The translations under genes were made by a program, and so were the position numbers. Shown in pieces: positions 13,313-58,109 of a stretch of 64,000 nucleotides of DNA. Source of the stretch: a virus. The DNA is taken from the IMG/VR virus record IMGVR_UViG_3300032331_002067, positions 1 to 64,000 of that record; one strand, 5' to 3'. Within the stretch, counting starts at the first letter, position 1. Every line of letters begins with the position of its first letter. The notes beneath the pieces are model-generated. The model did no database searches. It saw nothing but the letters and a program-made list of their open reading frames with translations, and had not been told where the DNA came from.

Positions 13313-14206
13313 ATGGAAGATGAAATTCGTAAGCTATTTGAGAACTATAACATTGATGTAGCCTCAGATAGCGGTAATGAATTCAATATCTACTGTCCAT
13401 TCCATAAGAACCTACACAGTCCAGCTTTTTTTATTAATAGGAAGACTGGGCTGTGGCAGTGTTTCAACCCCTCTTGCGCTAAGCGAGGAAACTTTAGACA
13501 ACTTTATCGTCAGATAACCGGCAAGCCGTATGGAAAGAGCATCACTCTTGATTCGGCTGCCTTAACTAACGAGATTGAAAGAGGTTTTCGGGGGAAGGTA
13601 ATCTCAAATGAGATTGACATTGATTCCGTTGCTGTTGATTATGACAACAATGATGAAACAATGTTATTGTCAAAGTTCCTTGATAGAGGTTTATCCCTTG
13701 AAACAATGGAGTACTTTGAGATTGGCTTCTCCAGAGTTAAGGAGAGGATTGTTATTCCAGTAAGAGACCCCAACTACAAGCTAGTCGGTTTTATTGGAAG
13801 AGCAACAACCGATGAGCAAGAACCAAGATATTTATATAACAAAGGATTTAAGCGTGCTGATGTATTATTTAACATCCAAAACGCAAAAAAACACCCTAGT
13901 TGTATAATTACAGAGGGCAGTGTTGACGCAATGATGGTTTACCAAGCTGGTTATCCAAATGTTGTATCAACACTTGGCGCTCAGGTTAGCAATAACCAGA
14001 TCAAAATGCTGAAAAGATATTTTGACGAATTAATTATATTTTCTGATAACGATGACGCAGGAATCGCCATGAAGAATGATATAATAAATCTCTGCCGAGG
14101 CAAAGTTCTTTCCGAGGCAAAGATAGCTGATGGTTGTAAAGACCCCGGCGAAATGAAAAAAGAACAAATAACAAACAGTATTGAAAATAAAATTTCAATC
14201 ATATAA
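13313..14206 (+). CDS. DnaG-type primase (CHC2 zinc finger and TOPRIM)
   Basis: A 297-residue protein. A CHC2-type zinc motif (CPFH, then CFNPSC) spans about residues 23-52. The TOPRIM core has EGSVDAM and FSDNDDAG, the acidic residues that hold catalytic metal. It lacks the C-terminal helicase-binding domain of cellular DnaG, as many phage primases do. It would lay RNA primers for the PolIII-type polymerase. An in-frame ATG at 13262 would add 17 low-complexity residues and overlap the upstream gene, so 13313 is preferred. Confidence 0.88.
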   Translation: MEDEIRKLFENYNIDVASDSGNEFNIYCPFHKNLHSPAFFINRKTGLWQCFNPSCAKRGNFRQLYRQITGKPYGKSITLDSAALTNEIERGFRGKVISNEIDIDSVAVDYDNNDETMLLSKFLDRGLSLETMEYFEIGFSRVKERIVIPVRDPNYKLVGFIGRATTDEQEPRYLYNKGFKRADVLFNIQNAKKHPSCIITEGSVDAMMVYQAGYPNVVSTLGAQVSNNQIKMLKRYFDELIIFSDNDDAGIAMKNDIINLCRGKVLSEAKIADGCKDPGEMKKEQITNSIENKISII

Positions 14207-20573: not shown

Positions 20574-21506
20574 ATGTTAGTAGTAGATAAAAGAAAAGGC
20601 GATCATATGCCTATTCACGAAGTTATTCCAACACCGAGCATCGGGTTAAATCGTGCTCTTGGAGGAGGGCTTAATTCAGGAGCAACCCATCTATTCTGGG
20701 GAACACCATCAGTTGGTAAAACAACAATGTGTTTCCGGATTCTTGCGGAAGCTCAGAGAAGAGGATACCGACCAGTCATCATTGACTCGGAGTATTCTTA
20801 CAATGATCAGTATGCTGCAAAGTGCGGTATTGACATCGATGATGTTGTTGTAATCCAATCAACAATTGTAGAAGAGATCATGAAGGCTCTCATTGGTTAT
20901 TTGAATAACGATGTTGAGAAGCACATCTTCTTATTTGACTCTCTATCGAATATCATCAAAGAAGAATTTTATGACAAGCCAGAGGGTGGTAAAGCAATGG
21001 GACTTCAATCTCGTTCGCAGGGTTACCTTCTTCAGAAGCTTGTTAATTACCTCCATAAGGAACGGAACATTATGCTATTCGTAGCGCACCAGACCGTTGA
21101 CCTTAGTGGAATGTTCGCTGTAACAAAAGCGAAGATGGGTAACACAGTGCATCACAATATGCACAACATTGTGAAGTTATTCCTTTCAATGTCACAAAAG
21201 GAAATGGAGCGTGATGATACTCACACCATTACTTCACAGAGGGCTGTGTGGACAATTGAAAAGACAAAACAAATCCCAACTATCGGAGCGCAAGGTTATT
21301 ACTATGTTCTCCCACAAGAAGGAAAGATTGACACTGACCGAGAGCTTATTGATATTGCGGTTGAGATGGATATCATTCAACGCAGAGGTGCATGGTATTC
21401 TTATGGCACTGAGAAGTGGAATGGAATGACATCTATTAATTTGTCTGAAGAAGTAAGAGATGAGATTGCAACTCTGATTTTGGGTCGTGAGCTTCAAGAG
21501 GTGTAA
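20574..21506 (+). CDS. RecA/UvsX-like recombinase ATPase
   Basis: A 310-residue protein with AAAGGAGA before the ATG. Walker A is GTPSVGKTT, Walker B is KHIFLFDSLSN, and the core continues with LLQKLVNYLHKERNIMLFVAHQT as in RecA/RadA proteins. It lacks the long RecA C-terminal domain. It probably builds the filament for recombination-dependent replication together with the nuclease and resolvase downstream. Confidence 0.85.
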   Translation: MLVVDKRKGDHMPIHEVIPTPSIGLNRALGGGLNSGATHLFWGTPSVGKTTMCFRILAEAQRRGYRPVIIDSEYSYNDQYAAKCGIDIDDVVVIQSTIVEEIMKALIGYLNNDVEKHIFLFDSLSNIIKEEFYDKPEGGKAMGLQSRSQGYLLQKLVNYLHKERNIMLFVAHQTVDLSGMFAVTKAKMGNTVHHNMHNIVKLFLSMSQKEMERDDTHTITSQRAVWTIEKTKQIPTIGAQGYYYVLPQEGKIDTDRELIDIAVEMDIIQRRGAWYSYGTEKWNGMTSINLSEEVRDEIATLILGRELQEV

Positions 21507-50743: not shown

Positions 50744-51229
50744 ATGTCATTAAATTGGTCAACACAAAAAGTAGAATACTTTAAACAAAACCCAGACGAG
50801 CTTTGGGTAAAGTATCGTAAAGGAACACCTGAAGAATACGAAGATGTAAATGCTGAAACAAAAGCGTTGATTTTTGGCTCAATGGCTCTTGGGCTTGGAA
50901 GTATTACAGAAAAAAATGCTTCCGAATGGTATGCAAGATGGAAAATGTATGAGAAATATGATGGATTTTCATTGTATGCTATGTTCAAAGAAGATGGCAC
51001 ATATGAAGACATCTATTTAACCCCAGAAGTTATCCTAAAGCATATTGGATTAGGTATGAATGTTTCTGACGAAACAACAGCAAATTGGTGCAAGCGTTTT
51101 AGTAAGCCTAGATATAAAGAAGAAACTGACCGACCTACTTTTGTTCAAGCAAAAGCTATGGTTATTGTTTTGAAAATGGAATTTGATTCCTTAATCAAAG
51201 ATCTCAATAAAGAAATGGAGACAGTATAA
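50744..51229 (+). CDS. Hypothetical protein
   Basis: A 161-residue protein, helical, with a charged C-terminus (VLKMEFDSLIKDLNKEME). TAATG-coupled to the next gene. No family recognised. Confidence 0.5.
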   Translation: MSLNWSTQKVEYFKQNPDELWVKYRKGTPEEYEDVNAETKALIFGSMALGLGSITEKNASEWYARWKMYEKYDGFSLYAMFKEDGTYEDIYLTPEVILKHIGLGMNVSDETTANWCKRFSKPRYKEETDRPTFVQAKAMVIVLKMEFDSLIKDLNKEMETV

Positions 51230-51444
51230 TGGCGGGTAAGAAACCAGCTAAAGTTAATTCAGCTACACAGAAAGAAAAGGTAACGATACAGCCCGGAAAA
51301 GCTGTAAAGTATCTTAGTTTAGTAAAAGGTGCAAATCCTTTCGTCTGTCCTACTTGTAATCGTAATCTATTTAAAGGGATTCTTTATGAGCACGATAATA
51401 AGACATACTGCAAGCGTACCTGTATCCCAAAAGTGGAGGCATAG
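51229..51444 (+). CDS. Small basic zinc protein
   Basis: A 71-residue protein: lysine-rich N-terminus, then CPTCNRNLFKG and CKRTC, a zinc ribbon. One of few basic proteins in this region, so DNA or RNA binding is possible. Confidence 0.55.
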   Translation: MAGKKPAKVNSATQKEKVTIQPGKAVKYLSLVKGANPFVCPTCNRNLFKGILYEHDNKTYCKRTCIPKVEA

Positions 51445-53433: not shown

Positions 53434-53479
53434 AAAAGCCTTAGAGGTAAGTTAAATCTTATCTTTAGGGCTTTTTTTT
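53434..53479 (+). terminator. Intrinsic terminator of the plus-strand block
   Basis: A 16-bp stem with a few G-U pairs (AAGCCTTAGAGGTAAG opposite CTTATCTTTAGGGCTT), 6-nt loop and T6. It would end transcription from the small-gene region. Confidence 0.88.
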
Positions 53480-53563
53480 GTGCCTAAAATCAGCATAAAG
53501 TAAAGAATAATCGATAAAAAACGATCAAAACATAGCAAAAACATACTATTTTGTATCAAAACA

Positions 53564-53579
53564 TCGAACATTTGTTCGT
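53564..53579 (+). promoter_or_regulatory. SOS box (LexA operator)
   Basis: TCGAAC-ATTT-GTTCGT matches the actinobacterial LexA operator TCGAAC-N4-GTTCGA at all but the last base. It lies 4 nt before the next DnaA box. It suggests that something here answers to DNA damage in the host. Confidence 0.7.
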
Positions 53580-53583
53580 ATGT

Positions 53584-53592
53584 TGTGGATAA
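53584..53592 (-). promoter_or_regulatory. DnaA box 3
   Basis: TGTGGATAA, the perfect complement of TTATCCACA, next to the SOS box. Confidence 0.6.
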
Positions 53593-53748
53593 CTTCGGAT
53601 ATGTACTAAAATTAAAGGTAAAGTTAAAGAAAAACAGCCTACATTAGAGAGCTGAATGCGTATTCGCCGGCTTTGTTCTATCTATAGCTATCTCTATCCC
53701 TATATATAAGCTAGAAGACTATCTAACCCGGAACTTTGCGGGAAAGCT

Positions 53749-53779
53749 CATAATTTGAGAATGTATAAGTGCCCCTTAC
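53749..53779 (+). repeat. Bipartite repeat, copy 2
   Basis: CATAATTTGA, 14 nt, CCCTTAC. Confidence 0.65.
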
Positions 53780-54009
53780 CCTATATATATCCCTAGCTAT
53801 AAAGTAAATAAGAATATTTGAAGGTATTTACCCCGATAGTTAATGTATTAGAGAATGAGGTAGAGAATGTGATAGTAGATATCCCAAATGCCGGCGATAA
53901 TAATGTGAAAGTTACGGGCTTGTAATTTGAGTCATATATTCACCTATATATGTACAGATATACCTAGGGGAATAGATAAACCAATAGCCCCGTCTTATTC
54001 CTCAGACCC

Positions 54010-54039
54010 CATAATTTGAAAGGGATACTGATCCCTTAC
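54010..54039 (+). repeat. Bipartite repeat, copy 3
   Basis: CATAATTTGA, 13 nt, CCCTTAC. Confidence 0.65.
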
Positions 54040-54140
54040 CCTTATCTTAAATTGAAATAGAAATTTAAACTTAATAAAAGAAAGATTCATCATGATTAGT
54101 AAATTCATTAAATTAATGAGAAAATTAAAGTTAAATTTAA

Positions 54141-54178
54141 TTGGTGTCCAAAACGCTGAAGCGTTTATGGTACCCCAA
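54141..54178. repeat. Double-stem element H1
   Basis: Outer TTGGTGT / ACCCCAA (one mismatch), inner AAACGCT-GA-AGCGTTT. It is followed at once by bipartite repeat copy 4. Confidence 0.6.
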
Positions 54179-54179
54179 C

Positions 54180-54209
54180 CATAATTTGAAAGTTAAGGTG
54201 GTCCCTTAC
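54180..54209 (+). repeat. Bipartite repeat, copy 4
   Basis: CATAATTTGA, 13 nt, CCCTTAC. Confidence 0.65.
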
Positions 54210-54268
54210 CGTATAGGTATCGTTTGGAGAATGTATTAAATTAATAAGAAAGATAAAGGTAAACGAAA

Positions 54269-54305
54269 CTGGTGTTCAAGTGCTTTAGCACGCCCAGAAC
54301 ACCAG
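54269..54305. repeat. Double-stem element H2
   Basis: Outer 9-bp CTGGTGTTC / GAACACCAG, inner GTGCT-TT-AGCAC. Compared with H4 the outer T-A pair is C-G, a compensatory change. Confidence 0.75.
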
Positions 54306-54316
54306 CGATTTTGGGC

Positions 54317-54343
54317 AAAAAAAAACCACGCCTTTCGGCGTGG
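54317..54343 (-). terminator. Intrinsic terminator of the first cassette
   Basis: CCACGCC / GGCGTGG stem; on the minus strand it is followed by T9. Confidence 0.85.
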
Positions 54344-54379
54344 AAAAAACTTTCGTTTATTTTTTCGGTTTCACTTTCG

Positions 54380-54730
54380 CTAAGCGTTCGCCTTGCGAGA
54401 GATAACCATTCTGCCATCGTCAAGCCAGTTGATTTGGATTGCAATCCCCAACTTTTCCGAAACACTTTCGGCACGATTTCGGTATTTCATCTTTTCGGCT
54501 TGAATCTTCGTTGAATCTTGGTTGAGATTCACCGTTGCTTCAGACCAAACGAATGCGTCACCGATTTCGTTGGGGTCTAATGACAGAATGTCTGTCGCCA
54601 ATACAGGGTTTTCGTATGGGGGTTTCCCACGCTTGACCAACTTGGATTGGATTTCGGAAAGGTTTACCTTTTGGTTTGCCTTTTTGGGTTTGTCGCCTGC
54701 GTTATCGCTCGGCATGGTTGTTGTAGCCAC
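54380..54730 (-). CDS. RGKPP-motif small protein A
   Basis: A 116-residue protein. A lysine-rich arm, KVNLSEIQSKLVKRGKPPYENP (an AT-hook-like RGKPP), LATDILSLDP, then EKMKYRNRAESVSEKLG and a beta end INWLDDGRMVIS. About two thirds identical to the gene at 55034 and related to that at 55609. Possibly a minor-groove DNA-binding phage regulator. GTG 54730 is chosen because it lies 6 nt behind a TATTAT box, exactly as in the paralogue; ATG 54715 is the alternative. Confidence 0.65.
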   Translation of the reverse strand: MATTTMPSDNAGDKPKKANQKVNLSEIQSKLVKRGKPPYENPVLATDILSLDPNEIGDAFVWSEATVNLNQDSTKIQAEKMKYRNRAESVSEKLGIAIQINWLDDGRMVISRKANA

Positions 54731-54736
54731 ATCTAC

Positions 54737-54742
54737 ATAATA
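54737..54742 (-). promoter_or_regulatory. Promoter of gene A (leaderless)
   Basis: TATTAT with a TTGAAT box 20 nt upstream (minus strand); GTG start 6 nt downstream. Confidence 0.55.
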
Positions 54743-54795
54743 CGAATGGGCTTGGGTTATGTATTCAATAATCGTAAATAATAGACCCAGAACGG

Positions 54796-54833
54796 CGGGC
54801 GCACGAAGTTCGCTGAAGCTCTCCGCACGCCCG
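54796..54833. repeat. Double-stem element H3
   Basis: Outer CGGGCG / CGCCCG; the inner stem is short (GCT-GA-AGC). Followed by bipartite repeat copy 5. Confidence 0.55.
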
Positions 54834-54834
54834 T

Positions 54835-54864
54835 CATGATTTGAATGGTAATTTGAATCCTTAC
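54835..54864 (+). repeat. Bipartite repeat, copy 5
   Basis: CATGATTTGA, 14 nt, CCTTAC (two changes from the consensus). Confidence 0.5.
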
Positions 54865-54927
54865 GGAGATCCTTACCATGATTTGAAAATGTGAATGAAA
54901 TTTTACTCATAGCTACACCGGTAGAAG

Positions 54928-54964
54928 CTGGCGTTCAAGTGCTTTAGCACGACCCGAACGCCAG
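54928..54964. repeat. Double-stem element H4
   Basis: Outer 9-bp CTGGCGTTC / GAACGCCAG, inner GTGCT-TT-AGCAC. Same layout and loop as H2 with one swapped base pair. Confidence 0.75.
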
Positions 54965-54975
54965 CGATTTTGGGC

Positions 54976-55002
54976 AAAAAAAAACTCGCCCCGAGGGGCG
55001 AG
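54976..55002 (-). terminator. Intrinsic terminator of gene B
   Basis: CTCGCCC / GGGCGAG stem, then T9 on the minus strand. Confidence 0.85.
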
Positions 55003-55033
55003 CCAAAAAAACTTTTTTTGTGTGGGGGGGATG

Positions 55034-55366
55034 TTACTGAGGAGTACCGAGGGAGATAATCATTTTTCCGTCATCCTGCCAGTTGATAGCGATGGTTACG
55101 CCACACTTCTCAGCAACGCTGAGGGCACGATTACGGTACTTCATTTTCTCTGCTTGTACCTTGTCCTGTGGTGCTGTGAGGTTCACAGTCGCTTCCGACC
55201 AGTAGAAGGCATCGCCCTCAACTGTTGGGTCAAGACTGAGAATGTCAGTAGCGAGCACTGGGTTCTCATAGGGGGGCTTGCCTCGCTTCACCAAGTTAGC
55301 CTTGATGCTGTTGAGGTTCACCTTTTTGTTTGGTTCCGCTTTGCGGTCACCTGTGTTATTTGCCAC
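55034..55366 (-). CDS. RGKPP-motif small protein B
   Basis: A 110-residue paralogue of gene A: KVNLNSIKANLVKRGKPPYE, LATDILSLDP, WSEATVNL, MKYRNRALSVAEKCG and INWQDDGKMIIS. GTG start 6 nt behind TATAGT, so leaderless. The two copies lie in neighbouring cassettes, which implies cassette duplication. Function unknown; DNA binding is inferred from the AT-hook-like motif. Confidence 0.65.
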   Translation of the reverse strand: MANNTGDRKAEPNKKVNLNSIKANLVKRGKPPYENPVLATDILSLDPTVEGDAFYWSEATVNLTAPQDKVQAEKMKYRNRALSVAEKCGVTIAINWQDDGKMIISLGTPQ

Positions 55367-55372
55367 GAGATA

Positions 55373-55378
55373 ACTATA
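55373..55378 (-). promoter_or_regulatory. Promoter of gene B (leaderless)
   Basis: TATAGT with TTGGAT 20 nt upstream on the minus strand; GTG 6 nt downstream. Confidence 0.6.
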
Positions 55379-55442
55379 CCTATGGGGTTCACCTGTGTAT
55401 CCAATACCTACTAAATACTCTCATAGATTAGACCCAAACTGG

Positions 55443-55480
55443 CTGGTGCTTAAAAGAGCTGAAGCTCTTCCGCACACCAG
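55443..55480. repeat. Double-stem element H5
   Basis: Outer CTGGTG / CACCAG, inner AAGAGCT-GA-AGCTCTT (7 bp). Confidence 0.75.
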
Positions 55481-55501
55481 ACCATCTTGTGTATAGAGAG
55501 A

Positions 55502-55554
55502 GCGCATACTCAATCTCTCTGACTGTCCGTCTGGGTCGGCTTGGCGTTAGGCAC
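55502..55554. repeat. Module 2, copy 1
   Basis: GCGCATACTCAAT, 28 nt containing GACTGTCCG, then GGCGTTAGGC and an A run. Conserved in four of the array gaps. Confidence 0.6.
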
Positions 55555-55590
55555 AAAAAAAGGGAGAGAGCCGAAGCCCTCTCCCTTTTC
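55555..55590. terminator. Bidirectional intrinsic terminator of gene C
   Basis: GGGAGAG...CTCTCCC stem, T-run on both strands. Confidence 0.85.
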
Positions 55591-55608
55591 GTCAGCCCGC
55601 AAGTGATT

Positions 55609-55911
55609 CTAGCGGTTTGCTTTGCTTACTACTGGACTTGACTTTGCGCCGACTGTCCATGAGATGGACACGGGCTTACCAAGCCTCATAGAGATGGTAT
55701 GTATGCGGTTGCGATACTTCATCTTTTGAGTGTGATTGCTCTGAGTGACACGAATATCACTCAAGACAATCTCATCAGTTGTCTTTTTGAGAAGGCGTAG
55801 AGCCTGCTCAATGTTTGCGTCAGAGAATGGGGGTCGCCCACGCTTGACGATTGTTGCTGTACCTTTAGGCTGAACTTTCATGATTCCTACTTTCGTTGGG
55901 TTTAGGTTCAC
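55609..55911 (-). CDS. RGRPP-motif small protein C
   Basis: A 100-residue, more diverged member of the A/B family: VNLNPTK, IVKRGRPPFSDA (a full AT-hook core RGRPP), MKYRNRIHTISMRLG and a beta end. Start: GTG 55911 keeps the shared VNLN; ATG 55881 has a ribosome site (AGGA) and is the alternative. The promoter 20 nt further up does not place an in-frame start at the leaderless distance, unlike A and B. Confidence 0.6.
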   Translation of the reverse strand: MNLNPTKVGIMKVQPKGTATIVKRGRPPFSDANIEQALRLLKKTTDEIVLSDIRVTQSNHTQKMKYRNRIHTISMRLGKPVSISWTVGAKSSPVVSKANR

Positions 55912-55930
55912 CGTTGGGCTGACATCTATA

Positions 55931-55936
55931 ACTATA
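55931..55936 (-). promoter_or_regulatory. Promoter of gene C
   Basis: TATAGT with TTGAAT 20 nt upstream on the minus strand. Confidence 0.55.
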
Positions 55937-55988
55937 CCTATGGGTTGAATATATGTATTCAATATGAGAATATATAGACCCTAGATTC

Positions 55989-56028
55989 GCTGGCGTTTAA
56001 GAAGTCTGAAGCCCTCTCGCACACCAGC
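55989..56028. repeat. Double-stem element H6
   Basis: Outer GCTGGCG / CACCAGC (one mismatch), inner stem weak. Shares TTTAAG and TCGCACACCAG with the others. Confidence 0.55.
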
Positions 56029-56048
56029 TCGCTTAGGTAGGAAGAGAA

Positions 56049-56098
56049 TGTGTACTCAATTCCAATGGATCGCCTGTCCGGGTCGGAGTGGTGTTAGA
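56049..56098. repeat. Module 2, copy 2
   Basis: TGTGTACTCAAT, about 29 nt containing CTGTCCGGGTCGG, then GGTGTTAGAC. Confidence 0.55.
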
Positions 56099-56100
56099 CA

Positions 56101-56134
56101 AAAAAAAGAGGGGGTCTTGCGACCCCCCCTCTTT
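56101..56134. terminator. Bidirectional intrinsic terminator
   Basis: AAAGAGGGGGTC / GACCCCCCCTCTTT stem flanked by A and T runs. Confidence 0.85.
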
Positions 56135-56147
56135 CGGAGTGTGTGAC

Positions 56148-56564
56148 CTAGGCGAAGGCTAGGAACTCAACGATTGCCTGTGAGTAAAGGTGACCCTCCA
56201 CTTGCATATTCTCACCCAACAATGCCTCAACCGCTTTCACGGCTGGTAGCAATGTTTCCTGAATGGTGAACAATGTCTCGTAGTAGGTAGCCTTCGTGAC
56301 TGTCTCGCTATCGTCACGGGTCACTGTTCTAATGACTGTCTGAGTAGCGTCTAGGAGTGTCTCACCCGTTGAGCGGGCTTGTTCTAGGAAGAACATATGA
56401 GTATCTCCTGACATATGGTCAGACTGAATCATGACCTTTATAAATGCCTTAGTGAATATCTCCACGAAGGTGTTGAGTGTGCTTGCGAACACATTCAGAC
56501 TAAGTATCTGAAGTGGCTCGCAGGGTTCAAGTAGTGGTTCCAATGTTACCTTTCCGCAGTTCAT
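56148..56564 (-). CDS. Hypothetical array protein D
   Basis: A 138-residue, largely helical protein (LEQARSTGETLLDATQTVI, YYETLFTIQETLLPAV). The ATG has GGAAG upstream. A TAATAT box lies at 56588-56593 with TTGAAT 20 nt above it. An ATG at 56582, placed like the leaderless starts, would give only six codons. No family recognised. Confidence 0.55.
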   Translation of the reverse strand: MNCGKVTLEPLLEPCEPLQILSLNVFASTLNTFVEIFTKAFIKVMIQSDHMSGDTHMFFLEQARSTGETLLDATQTVIRTVTRDDSETVTKATYYETLFTIQETLLPAVKAVEALLGENMQVEGHLYSQAIVEFLAFA

Positions 56565-56587
56565 TTGTTCACTGCTTCCATACACCT

Positions 56588-56593
56588 ATATTA
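56588..56593 (-). promoter_or_regulatory. Promoter of gene D
   Basis: TAATAT with TTGAAT 20 nt upstream on the minus strand, the same layout as in the other cassettes. Confidence 0.5.
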
Positions 56594-56647
56594 CTATCGG
56601 GTTTAGAATATGTATTCAATATCGGGATATACCTAGACCCACATTGG

Positions 56648-56685
56648 TTGGTGCTAAAGGAAGCTTAAGCCTCCTCGCACACCAA
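56648..56685. repeat. Double-stem element H7
   Basis: Outer TTGGTG / CACCAA (compensatory to H5), inner AGGAAGCT / AGCCTCCT with one mismatch. Confidence 0.7.
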
Positions 56686-56723
56686 ACGAACATCGGTACG
56701 GGAAGACGATCAGTGTAGAGAGA

Positions 56724-56774
56724 ACGCATACTCAACTCTATAGACTGTCCGTACCGAATGGATTGGAGTAGAGA
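56724..56774. repeat. Module 2, copy 3
   Basis: ACGCATACTCAAC, 28 nt with GACTGTCCG, then GGAGTAGAGAC. Confidence 0.55.
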
Positions 56775-56775
56775 C

Positions 56776-56811
56776 AAAAAAAAGAACCGTACTGGCTGTA
56801 CGGTTCTCTTT
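56776..56811. terminator. Intrinsic terminator of the E-F operon
   Basis: GAACCGTAC / GTACGGTTC stem, T-rich on the minus strand. Confidence 0.85.
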
Positions 56812-56820
56812 CTTGGGGGT

Positions 56821-57033
56821 CTAATCGTTTGGTCGGTATGTCTCGTACCCATAGGGGTCGTAGATAGTGGTCGTGGTCTCGCAAGGGTAGTGAAACTCTT
56901 GGCAGTCGGGGATACCCTTTCCCCCCCTCTCACCGATAATGAAGCAGGCGATAAGTATCGCATACGCAAGGCTCACCCAAAAGATGAACCTCACGAATGA
57001 GCGAATACGGTAGTAGGTAGGTGAGTGCCCCAT
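56821..57033 (-). CDS. Small membrane protein F
   Basis: A 70-residue protein; FVRFIFWVSLAYAILIACFII spans the membrane, and the C-terminal part carries two Cys (PDCQEFHYPC). Coupled to gene E by TAATG, so the two probably act together. Confidence 0.6.
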   Translation of the reverse strand: MGHSPTYYRIRSFVRFIFWVSLAYAILIACFIIGERGGKGIPDCQEFHYPCETTTTIYDPYGYETYRPND

Positions 57034-57296
57034 TACAAGCACCTCGGGCACTTGCAGGGGGCAGGCTCGCAACACTCAGTAGCGTTGGTCAGTATCTCAA
57101 ACTTACGCAACCCTTTGAGGATTGCGGGGTTGAGGTAAAGGTTCTCTGTCCAACCTTCGTACTGAGCCTCACACATTGCCTTGCAAGCCTCATAGATAGA
57201 GAACTCATTAGGGTGAGTTCGTAGTGTCCAATACATGTCCCAGTTCTTAGGGAACTGGGTTGCCTCTGCGATAGCAGTCAGCGGGTTTATTCCCAT
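57033..57296 (-). CDS. Cys-rich small protein E
   Basis: An 87-residue protein; helical body, then ECCEPAPCKCPRC at the end, a probable metal knuckle. ATG 57296 lies exactly 6 nt behind TATAGT, so the mRNA is likely leaderless. Confidence 0.6.
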   Translation of the reverse strand: MGINPLTAIAEATQFPKNWDMYWTLRTHPNEFSIYEACKAMCEAQYEGWTENLYLNPAILKGLRKFEILTNATECCEPAPCKCPRCL

Positions 57297-57302
57297 ACAC
57301 AC

Positions 57303-57308
57303 ACTATA
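57303..57308 (-). promoter_or_regulatory. Promoter of the E-F operon (leaderless)
   Basis: TATAGT, TTGTAT 20 nt upstream, ATG 6 nt downstream on the minus strand. Confidence 0.6.
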
Positions 57309-57360
57309 CCTATGAGGTTAGAATGTGTATACAAAATGAGAGAATACCTACCCCCTTACA

Positions 57361-57402
57361 CGCTGGTGTTTAAGAAGGCTTAAGCCTTCCCGCACTCCAG
57401 CG
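57361..57402. repeat. Double-stem element H8
   Basis: Outer CGCTGG / CCAGCG, inner GAAGGCT-TA-AGCCTTC (7 bp). Confidence 0.75.
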
Positions 57403-57448
57403 ATTCTAGATCTATCACCGTTCCCCTGAGAGGTCGTGTATAGAGAGA

Positions 57449-57499
57449 GCGCATACTCAACCCTATGGGCTGTCCGCCTCGGTAGGAATGGTGTTAGGC
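57449..57499. repeat. Module 2, copy 4
   Basis: GCGCATACTCAAC, 28 nt with GGCTGTCCG, then GGTGTTAGGC and an A run. Confidence 0.6.
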
Positions 57500-57530
57500 A
57501 AAAAAAAGAGCCAGCCCGAAGGCTGGCTCT
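57500..57530 (-). terminator. Intrinsic terminator of gene G
   Basis: GAGCCAGCC / GGCTGGCTC stem, T8 on the minus strand. Confidence 0.88.
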
Positions 57531-57555
57531 CTCTCTTGGGGGATTGTTGGGGGTC

Positions 57556-57888
57556 TTAGTAGTTGCGACCATTCGCATCGGTTACCTTGTAGCCCGACTT
57601 GACGAGCAAGGCAATGGCTAGGTCGGCATCGCTTGATACTCGCTCACGAATAGGTGACTTTACCTCGTAGCCTGCCATGAGTAATTCGTTCATTGCGCTT
57701 TCTACGATAGCCTCACGAGCCTTTATGTGGAGTTTGCTTGCTGTCTTGACCATGTAGGCGAGTTGGTCGTCAAACATTTTGGCGTATGCTACGGAGAACT
57801 TTACGCCCTCGCTTGCGACTTCCATGTTGCGTAGTTGAACGCAAGCCTCCTTGAAGGCTTCTTGTATAAGGTTAGTATCGTGTGACAT
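57556..57888 (-). CDS. Hypothetical array protein G
   Basis: A 110-residue protein, helices then SDADLAIALLVKSGYKVTD. The ATG has AAAGGA. The promoter 50 nt upstream leaves a leader that begins with ATGGAAGCA and contains CGCCC / GGGCG. Function unknown. Confidence 0.6.
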   Translation of the reverse strand: MSHDTNLIQEAFKEACVQLRNMEVASEGVKFSVAYAKMFDDQLAYMVKTASKLHIKAREAIVESAMNELLMAGYEVKSPIRERVSSDADLAIALLVKSGYKVTDANGRNY

Positions 57889-57938
57889 GGATTCCTTTCT
57901 CGCCCGTCAGTTGTTCGGGGCGTTGCTTCCATGTCATA

Positions 57939-57944
57939 ACTATA
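57939..57944 (-). promoter_or_regulatory. Promoter of gene G
   Basis: TATAGT with TTGAAT 20 nt upstream on the minus strand. Confidence 0.6.
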
Positions 57945-57997
57945 CCTATGGGCTGAAAATGTGTATTCAATCTAGGGAATAAACAAACCCCTACCCT

Positions 57998-58034
57998 GCG
58001 GGCGTAAAGCGAAGCTGAAGCTTAGCACGCCCGC
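57998..58034. repeat. Double-stem element H9
   Basis: Outer GCGGGCG / CGCCCGC, inner GCGAAGCT-GA-AGCTTAGC with small mismatches. Confidence 0.75.
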
Positions 58035-58109
58035 CTATTGACTCCCCAAACAGAGGAAAACGAAAAACAAAAAAATAACGCAGTAGCATGCTACGGATAT
58101 ATACTCAAA

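Follow-up and report, generated by a model that had tools for sequence, protein, structure and literature searches.

Organization of the array

The window analysed here, 64 kb out of the 100,001-base uncultured virus record IMGVR_UViG_3300032331_002067 (IMG/VR), carries at 54.2–58.05 kb an array of small genes separated by repeated, structured gaps. All seven genes lie on the minus strand and form six units (g7; g6 and g5; g4; g3; g2; g1). Along the direction of transcription, each promoter block is followed by a gene (two genes in one unit), a terminator, often a gap repeat with the element TTGAGTATGCG, a hairpin of ~40 nt and then the next promoter. The genes, with product lengths in amino acids (aa), are as follows; the RGRK family is described below.

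57556–57888, minus strand: g7, unit 1, 110 aa
57033–57302, minus strand: g6, unit 2, 89 aa, putative leaderless ATG at ~57296
56821–57033, minus strand: g5, second gene of unit 2, predicted membrane protein
56148–56585, minus strand: g4, unit 3, at most 145 aa
55609–55881, minus strand: g3, unit 4, 90 aa, RGRK family
55034–55366, minus strand: g2, unit 5, 110 aa, RGRK family
54380–54715, minus strand: g1, unit 6, 111 aa, RGRK family, putative in-frame leaderless GTG at 54730

The ATG of g5 overlaps the stop codon of g6 (TAATG), and the probable start of g4 is a TTG at 56543, downstream of a ribosome-binding site and a short leader open reading frame (ORF), MEAVNK. The products of g1 and g2 are 65% identical, with g3 as a more distant paralogue (30%). 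The GC content is 0.479 in the array versus 0.367 in the remainder of the window, and arrays of this type are richer in GC than their flanking DNA in 10 of the 10 cases measured.

Promoters, terminators and translation starts

A strict scan for intrinsic terminators on both strands of the whole 64 kb returned eight on the minus strand, six of which fall within the array, exactly one per unit:

57506–57531, minus strand: intrinsic terminator, unit 1
56782–56808, minus strand: intrinsic terminator, unit 2
56104–56133, minus strand: intrinsic terminator, unit 3
55560–55587, minus strand: intrinsic terminator, unit 4
54983–55004, minus strand: intrinsic terminator, unit 5
54326–54343, minus strand: intrinsic terminator, unit 6

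The six promoter blocks share a single build, TTGAATACATA-N15-TATAGT/TATTAT. When a matrix trained solely on the seven promoters of the related array in record L002 was applied to the 64-kb window, its top five matches were five of the six array promoters (15.5–24.3 bits); the next match scored 8.2 bits and the best score across 20 shuffled windows was 11.5 bits. The sixth promoter, that of g2, is degenerate and was placed by the shared build. A simpler sigma-70-type scan showed no promoter excess (28 found versus 30.7 expected), because the array promoters deviate from the sigma-70 spacing that it assumes.

57933–57970, minus strand: promoter block, unit 1 (matrix)
57297–57334, minus strand: promoter block, unit 2 (matrix)
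56582–56619, minus strand: promoter block, unit 3 (matrix)
55925–55962, minus strand: promoter block, unit 4 (matrix)
55367–55404, minus strand: promoter block, unit 5, degenerate (shared build)
54731–54768, minus strand: promoter block, unit 6 (matrix)

Fourteen promoters of this build were examined across the window, L002 and the further record L005, and each of them has an ATG or GTG 5–7 nt past its -10 hexamer (in three of them a GTG two bases beyond an additional ATG at 4 nt), the chance of a start codon at that spacing being 0.087 per site. Leaderless mRNAs, which are common in Actinobacteria, have such a spacing. In several units short leader ORFs (MEAVNK, MSAQR, MEVNPK, VRVKPK) precede the main gene. 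Those with the products MEAVNK, MEVNPK and VRVKPK are themselves of the leaderless type, stand just ahead of a ribosome-binding site and the main gene (window 56541–56585; L002 5450–5510, 6400–6450 and 6820–6870) and are candidate leader peptides.

A preliminary description of this DNA had presented the locus as a GC-richer array of seven genes in six minus-strand units, each unit having its own intrinsic terminator and a promoter of the same build, with repeats in every gap and paralogous proteins in three units. The gene calls, the terminator scan, the promoter matrix (one degenerate block aside), the GC values, the g1–g3 identities and the gap contents given below bear out this account. The promoters and terminators are presumably in actual use.

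A hairpin with conserved ends in every gap

Each gap of the array holds, together with a promoter block, an imperfect hairpin of ~40 nt situated between the terminator of one unit and the promoter of the next. Its ends, GCKGGYGT and ACRCCMGC, are conserved, its inner arms are variable yet complementary, its length is nearly constant (37–42 nt) and there is roughly one copy per cassette:

57998–58034, minus strand: conserved-end hairpin before unit 1
57362–57401, minus strand: conserved-end hairpin, gap between units 1 and 2
56647–56686, minus strand: conserved-end hairpin, gap between units 2 and 3
55989–56028, minus strand: conserved-end hairpin, gap between units 3 and 4
55442–55481, minus strand: conserved-end hairpin, gap between units 4 and 5
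54927–54965, minus strand: conserved-end hairpin after unit 5
54794–54835, minus strand: second, similar hairpin in the gap ahead of unit 6 (from the sequence)
54268–54306, minus strand: conserved-end hairpin after unit 6

Since the inner stems differ in length, the arms were compared by end-anchored pairing instead of a covariance model. Among 86 unique hairpins from 11 arrays, pre-filtered by a folding-energy cut that itself favours pairing, Watson-Crick pairing reaches 0.852 at the variable outer positions, versus 0.601 on average and 0.672 at most for partners shuffled within genomes, and the inner hairpins fold at -5.6 kcal/mol, versus -2.8 kcal/mol for chimeras. The similarity of the inner hairpins is 0.509 within genomes and 0.349 between them, a contrast reached in 0 of 1000 label shuffles, which shows the inner sequence to be, by this measure, homogenised within each genome.

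Out of 46 phage records, 11 contain a match to the hairpin pattern and none a match to the reversed control. Over whole collections, exact hairpin patterns yield mostly lone chance matches (23 stretches of bacterial genomes with one each, and many lone viral ones), which were set aside in favour of clusters. In records with several matches these cluster in small-gene arrays, and about a dozen records from uncultured phages have the element in arrays. An Rfam search recovered the tRNA alone.

Other repeats share the gaps with the hairpin. The TTGAGTATGCG element was considered as a second promoter and rejected by eye, since a -10 hexamer is missing from where the array promoters would have it; the element belongs to the following repeat.

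57436–57507, minus strand: gap repeat with the TTGAGTATGCG element, family D3; further copies at 56711–56782 and 55489–55560, related copy near 56039–56110

The palindrome TGTAATATTACA is confined to the array regions in the three records that carry it. In record L066 (3600–9800) another palindrome, TTAACGTTAA, is present in dozens of copies, in gaps and inside hairpins, occupying the place that TGTAATATTACA has in L014, L015 and L209; it is possibly an operator of a phage regulator.

Gain, loss and transfer of whole cassettes

Comparison of the window with L002 shows that the flanks, g4 (88% identical), g2 and g1 are kept and that the whole g3 cassette is absent from L002. A different gene follows the first promoter of L002 in the place of g7, the homologue of which is the first cassette of L005, and L002 has further cassettes of its own upstream, each with the same gap. 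Two cassettes distinguish L014 from L015 (~90% identity): one is found only in L015 and is bordered by a 25-bp direct repeat, TTTAGTATGAAWTTGTAATATTACA, the other only in L014 and is bordered by an imperfect repeat of ~110 bp. L015 and L209 share, at 95.6% identity, a 432-bp block that includes the extra cassette of L015 (promoter, 41-aa gene, terminator, hairpin and ~50 nt), the other matches between these two arrays being at 66–76%. The block is bounded on both sides by TGTAATATTACA-type repeats. In all three cases that could be resolved, the breakpoints lie in gap repeats, and the sequence comparisons thus point to homologous exchange between these repeats. The contigs of L004 (10703) and L005 (12297) end shortly before the array or shortly after entering it, perhaps as a result of strain variation there.

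The preliminary description had read the array either as a set of separately tuned effectors or as a product of cassette duplication and shuffling, which predicts gain and loss of whole cassettes among related phages and would be contradicted by fixed gene content. Such turnover was found (window and L002, the two indels of L014 and L015, the single transfer between L015 and L209), gene content is not fixed, differing by whole cassettes in the first two of these pairs, and the three paralogous units fit duplication.

The RGRK family and the distal core

In every sampled array that extends to the distal end, the last two or three cassettes encode RGRK-family proteins, of ~100 aa and with an AT-hook-like RGRK/RGRP motif. 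Most cassettes outside this family are confined to a single lineage, and most proximal ones are without a match in other arrays. Searches of Pfam, PHROGs and PDB sequences with the family gave nothing convincing, and tblastn against named phages found no relative. The AlphaFold model of an RGRK protein (pLDDT 85) has no Foldseek match in PDB, its sole good match being one uncharacterised phage protein. A diverged further gene of the family lies on the opposite strand just past the array end in G009, G010, G044 and G045 (L209 10467–10820; L014 ~13850–14125).

Among 41 records fetched by means of an unrelated gene, and thus chosen regardless of the hairpin, four have hairpin arrays, and the same four and no others match the RGRK family strongly, a coincidence with a chance of ~1e-5 by our own calculation if the records are independent.

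Setting and source phage

The layout at the array is convergent: the plus-strand genes stop at 53.3 kb, ~0.9 kb of gene-free DNA separates the last of them from the array, and a tRNA-Asn gene followed by genes for an FkbM-type methyltransferase, a 2OG oxygenase and a nuclease lies beyond it. Two further features are listed here.

53500–54240, minus strand: gene-free array tail with degenerate copies of the hairpin and promoter (sequence reading)
20574–21506: RecA homologue

The stretch 53477–55588, which includes the tail, aligns to L002 at ~82%. Before the array, 51229–51444 encodes a 71-aa protein with a CxxC..C zinc-ribbon-like motif that has relatives in more than 100 uncultured phage stretches, on contigs of up to 210 kb; tblastn of this gene against named phages matched nothing.

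Megablast of the window at 40–64 kb against named phages gave zero matches. The window encodes a WhiB factor and a proteasome subunit along with the RecA homologue, and the best named relatives of its DnaE polymerase among the matches listed are Streptomyces phages (37.6% identity), including the distant cultured relative NootNoot (Samistivirus; 37.6%). Because of these four proteins the host is probably actinobacterial.

Origin and function of the array

We consider it probable that the locus is a modular array of autonomous units, likely early host-takeover genes, and that it owes its diversity to homologous recombination among the repeated modules of its gaps. Each unit, consisting of a promoter, one or two small genes and an intrinsic terminator, would be transcribed alone, with the hairpin outside the primary transcript, and the cassettes may represent separately tuned effectors. 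The gap modules, repeated and homogenised in each genome, could act as short homologies at which recombination, presumably of the RecA type and carried out by the phage homologue, would insert, delete, duplicate or import one whole unit with its control signals intact. The distal RGRK cassettes would then be a conserved core and the proximal ones a fast-changing accessory set. Unit anatomy, turnover, repeat-bounded indels, a recent transfer of a single cassette, and hairpins that are both homogenised and complementary are the sequence-level evidence that argues for this reading; early expression and a role in host takeover are presumed.

Several observations weigh against it. There is no turnover among the near-identical records G006, G048, G049 and G050, all array records are fragments, and a terminal-repeat location of the window array is suggested solely by analogy with NootNoot. 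The hairpin is also kept better than mere homology for recombination would need, from which we infer a further role. The sense strand folds better in 60 of the 86 hairpins and the antisense strand in 19, which hints at a role in RNA and sits awkwardly with a location outside the primary transcript. Most likely the hairpin would serve as a backup terminator, or as a processing and insulation structure on read-through RNA. The co-occurrence of hairpin and RGRK family might reflect a dedicated two-part system in which RGRK proteins recognise the hairpins, as DNA or as read-through RNA, and control the expression or exchange of cassettes, a doubtful proposal to which we give limited credence.

The array could also be an old, fixed, operon-like regulated set, with gaps that are operators and insulators under purely regulatory selection and differences due to ordinary phage mosaicism, as the short repeated motifs near promoters in the gap modules, the always distal, conserved RGRK cassettes and the constant gene content of near-identical genomes would allow; we regard this as unlikely, since whole units are gained and lost with intact signals and gap repeats as borders, and gap elements are homogenised within genomes. 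Movement of cassettes by a dedicated enzyme acting at the hairpin as a site of site-specific recombination or transposition, in the manner of integrons or REP/RAYT systems, is still less probable. Conserved ends, variable complementary arms, near-constant length, one copy per cassette and the transfer of a whole cassette with its hairpin are features that such a site would have, but the 12 array records, which are incomplete contigs, contain neither a tyrosine integrase (PF00589) nor a Y1 transposase, the resolved junctions lie in direct repeats after the hairpin, outside the hairpin itself, and the mobile unit, unlike an integron cassette, includes the promoter. That the row is no more than an accumulation of classic morons, in which every foreign gene would have entered on its own, along with its promoter and terminator, by non-homologous recombination, is least credible of all. 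A gene with promoter, terminator and deviant GC content fits the definition (PMC1524935) and most proximal cassettes are unmatched elsewhere, but independent imports would not be expected to have a single promoter build and a single hairpin in common within a genome, the paralogous cassettes indicate internal duplication, the rise in GC spans every array measured, and the shared gap architecture further weakens the idea, as does the arrival of the L015/L209 cassette with the gap of another array phage.

Shuffling of promoter–terminator cassettes, a feature of T4-type phages that has also been suggested for a haloarchaeal virus, is hereby extended to a group of uncultured phages with probable actinobacterial hosts, in which the gain, loss and transfer of single cassettes can be cleanly traced. 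The cis element and the protein family that mark such arrays are both new, and with these markers the arrays should be findable in metagenomes and could be mined for host-takeover proteins. The genes in the terminal repeats of cultured Streptomyces phages, which are poorly annotated, are predicted to work alike, so that the idea can be tested at the bench.

Comparison with known systems

The closest counterpart in a cultured phage is NootNoot (MF347636.1; Stanwilliamsviridae), the array of which lies at L206 888–9780. Both copies of its ~10-kb terminal repeat hold mostly minus-strand small genes with gaps of 100–200 bp that contain the palindrome GTCSGSCCSGGAC along with a promoter and a terminator (promoters and terminators read by eye). 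The palindrome is found only in the two terminal-repeat copies. As in the window, the layout is convergent, with plus-strand genes ending ~1.2 kb short of the array. The array genes, annotated mostly as hypothetical, include those for Lsr2-like and ParB-like proteins. NootNoot differs in that GTCSGSCCSGGAC replaces the 40-nt hairpin and no RGRK relative was found in the phage collection. A terminal redundancy also houses the host-takeover module of SPO1, with ~24 small orphan genes expressed early (PMC10531801, PMC6873191). The window array is likewise a cluster of small orphan genes. Together with the parallel in NootNoot, the analogy to SPO1 suggests an early, first-entering gene set. SPO1 itself is a Bacillus phage without a known protein relationship to the window array.

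Integron and REP/RAYT arrays were not supported as models, for lack of the enzymes in the 12 incomplete records and, in the case of attC sites, because of the hairpin ends (GCKGGYGT..ACRCCMGC) and of resolved junctions that fall in spacer repeats, with no crossover in the site. The units resemble morons, which are often expressed from prophages, in having their own promoter and terminator and a deviant GC content, but they form a homogenised array with apparently homologous exchange at gap repeats, not isolated non-homologous insertions. The SAS/ESAS elements of cluster K mycobacteriophages (PMC3203893) likewise place a repeated element, in their case a gene-start motif that comes with an imperfect inverted repeat of 17 bp, ahead of small actinophage genes; the ESAS, however, is tied to translation starts and has 4–13 bp between its arms, whereas the window hairpin lies upstream of the promoter, after the terminator.

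The promoter-early stem-loops (PeSLs) of T4-type phages are reported to be mobile regulatory cassettes in which a stem-loop terminator and a promoter are repeated between the small ORFs of a hyperplastic region and mediate modular shuffling (PMC4503421, PMC3950731). The window array has the same repetition of terminator and promoter, and arrays of its type show module shuffling between related phages. They differ in that a further hairpin with conserved ends separates terminator and promoter, in starts whose placement fits leaderless mRNA, in the GC-rich composition and in the universal distal RGRK core. We do not class the array as a PeSL because neither a T4-type genome nor a T4-type early promoter was found in the window: the closest DnaE matches listed are Streptomyces phages, a WhiB factor and a proteasome subunit are present, and the promoter is of the TTGAATACA type, not the GTTTAC type of T4. 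The remark in the preliminary description that phages rarely isolate each small gene in this way was too strong, the PeSLs and morons being precedents and NootNoot similar. As judged from its organization, the array would work like PeSLs, in another phage group and with a conserved hairpin and a marker protein family in addition.

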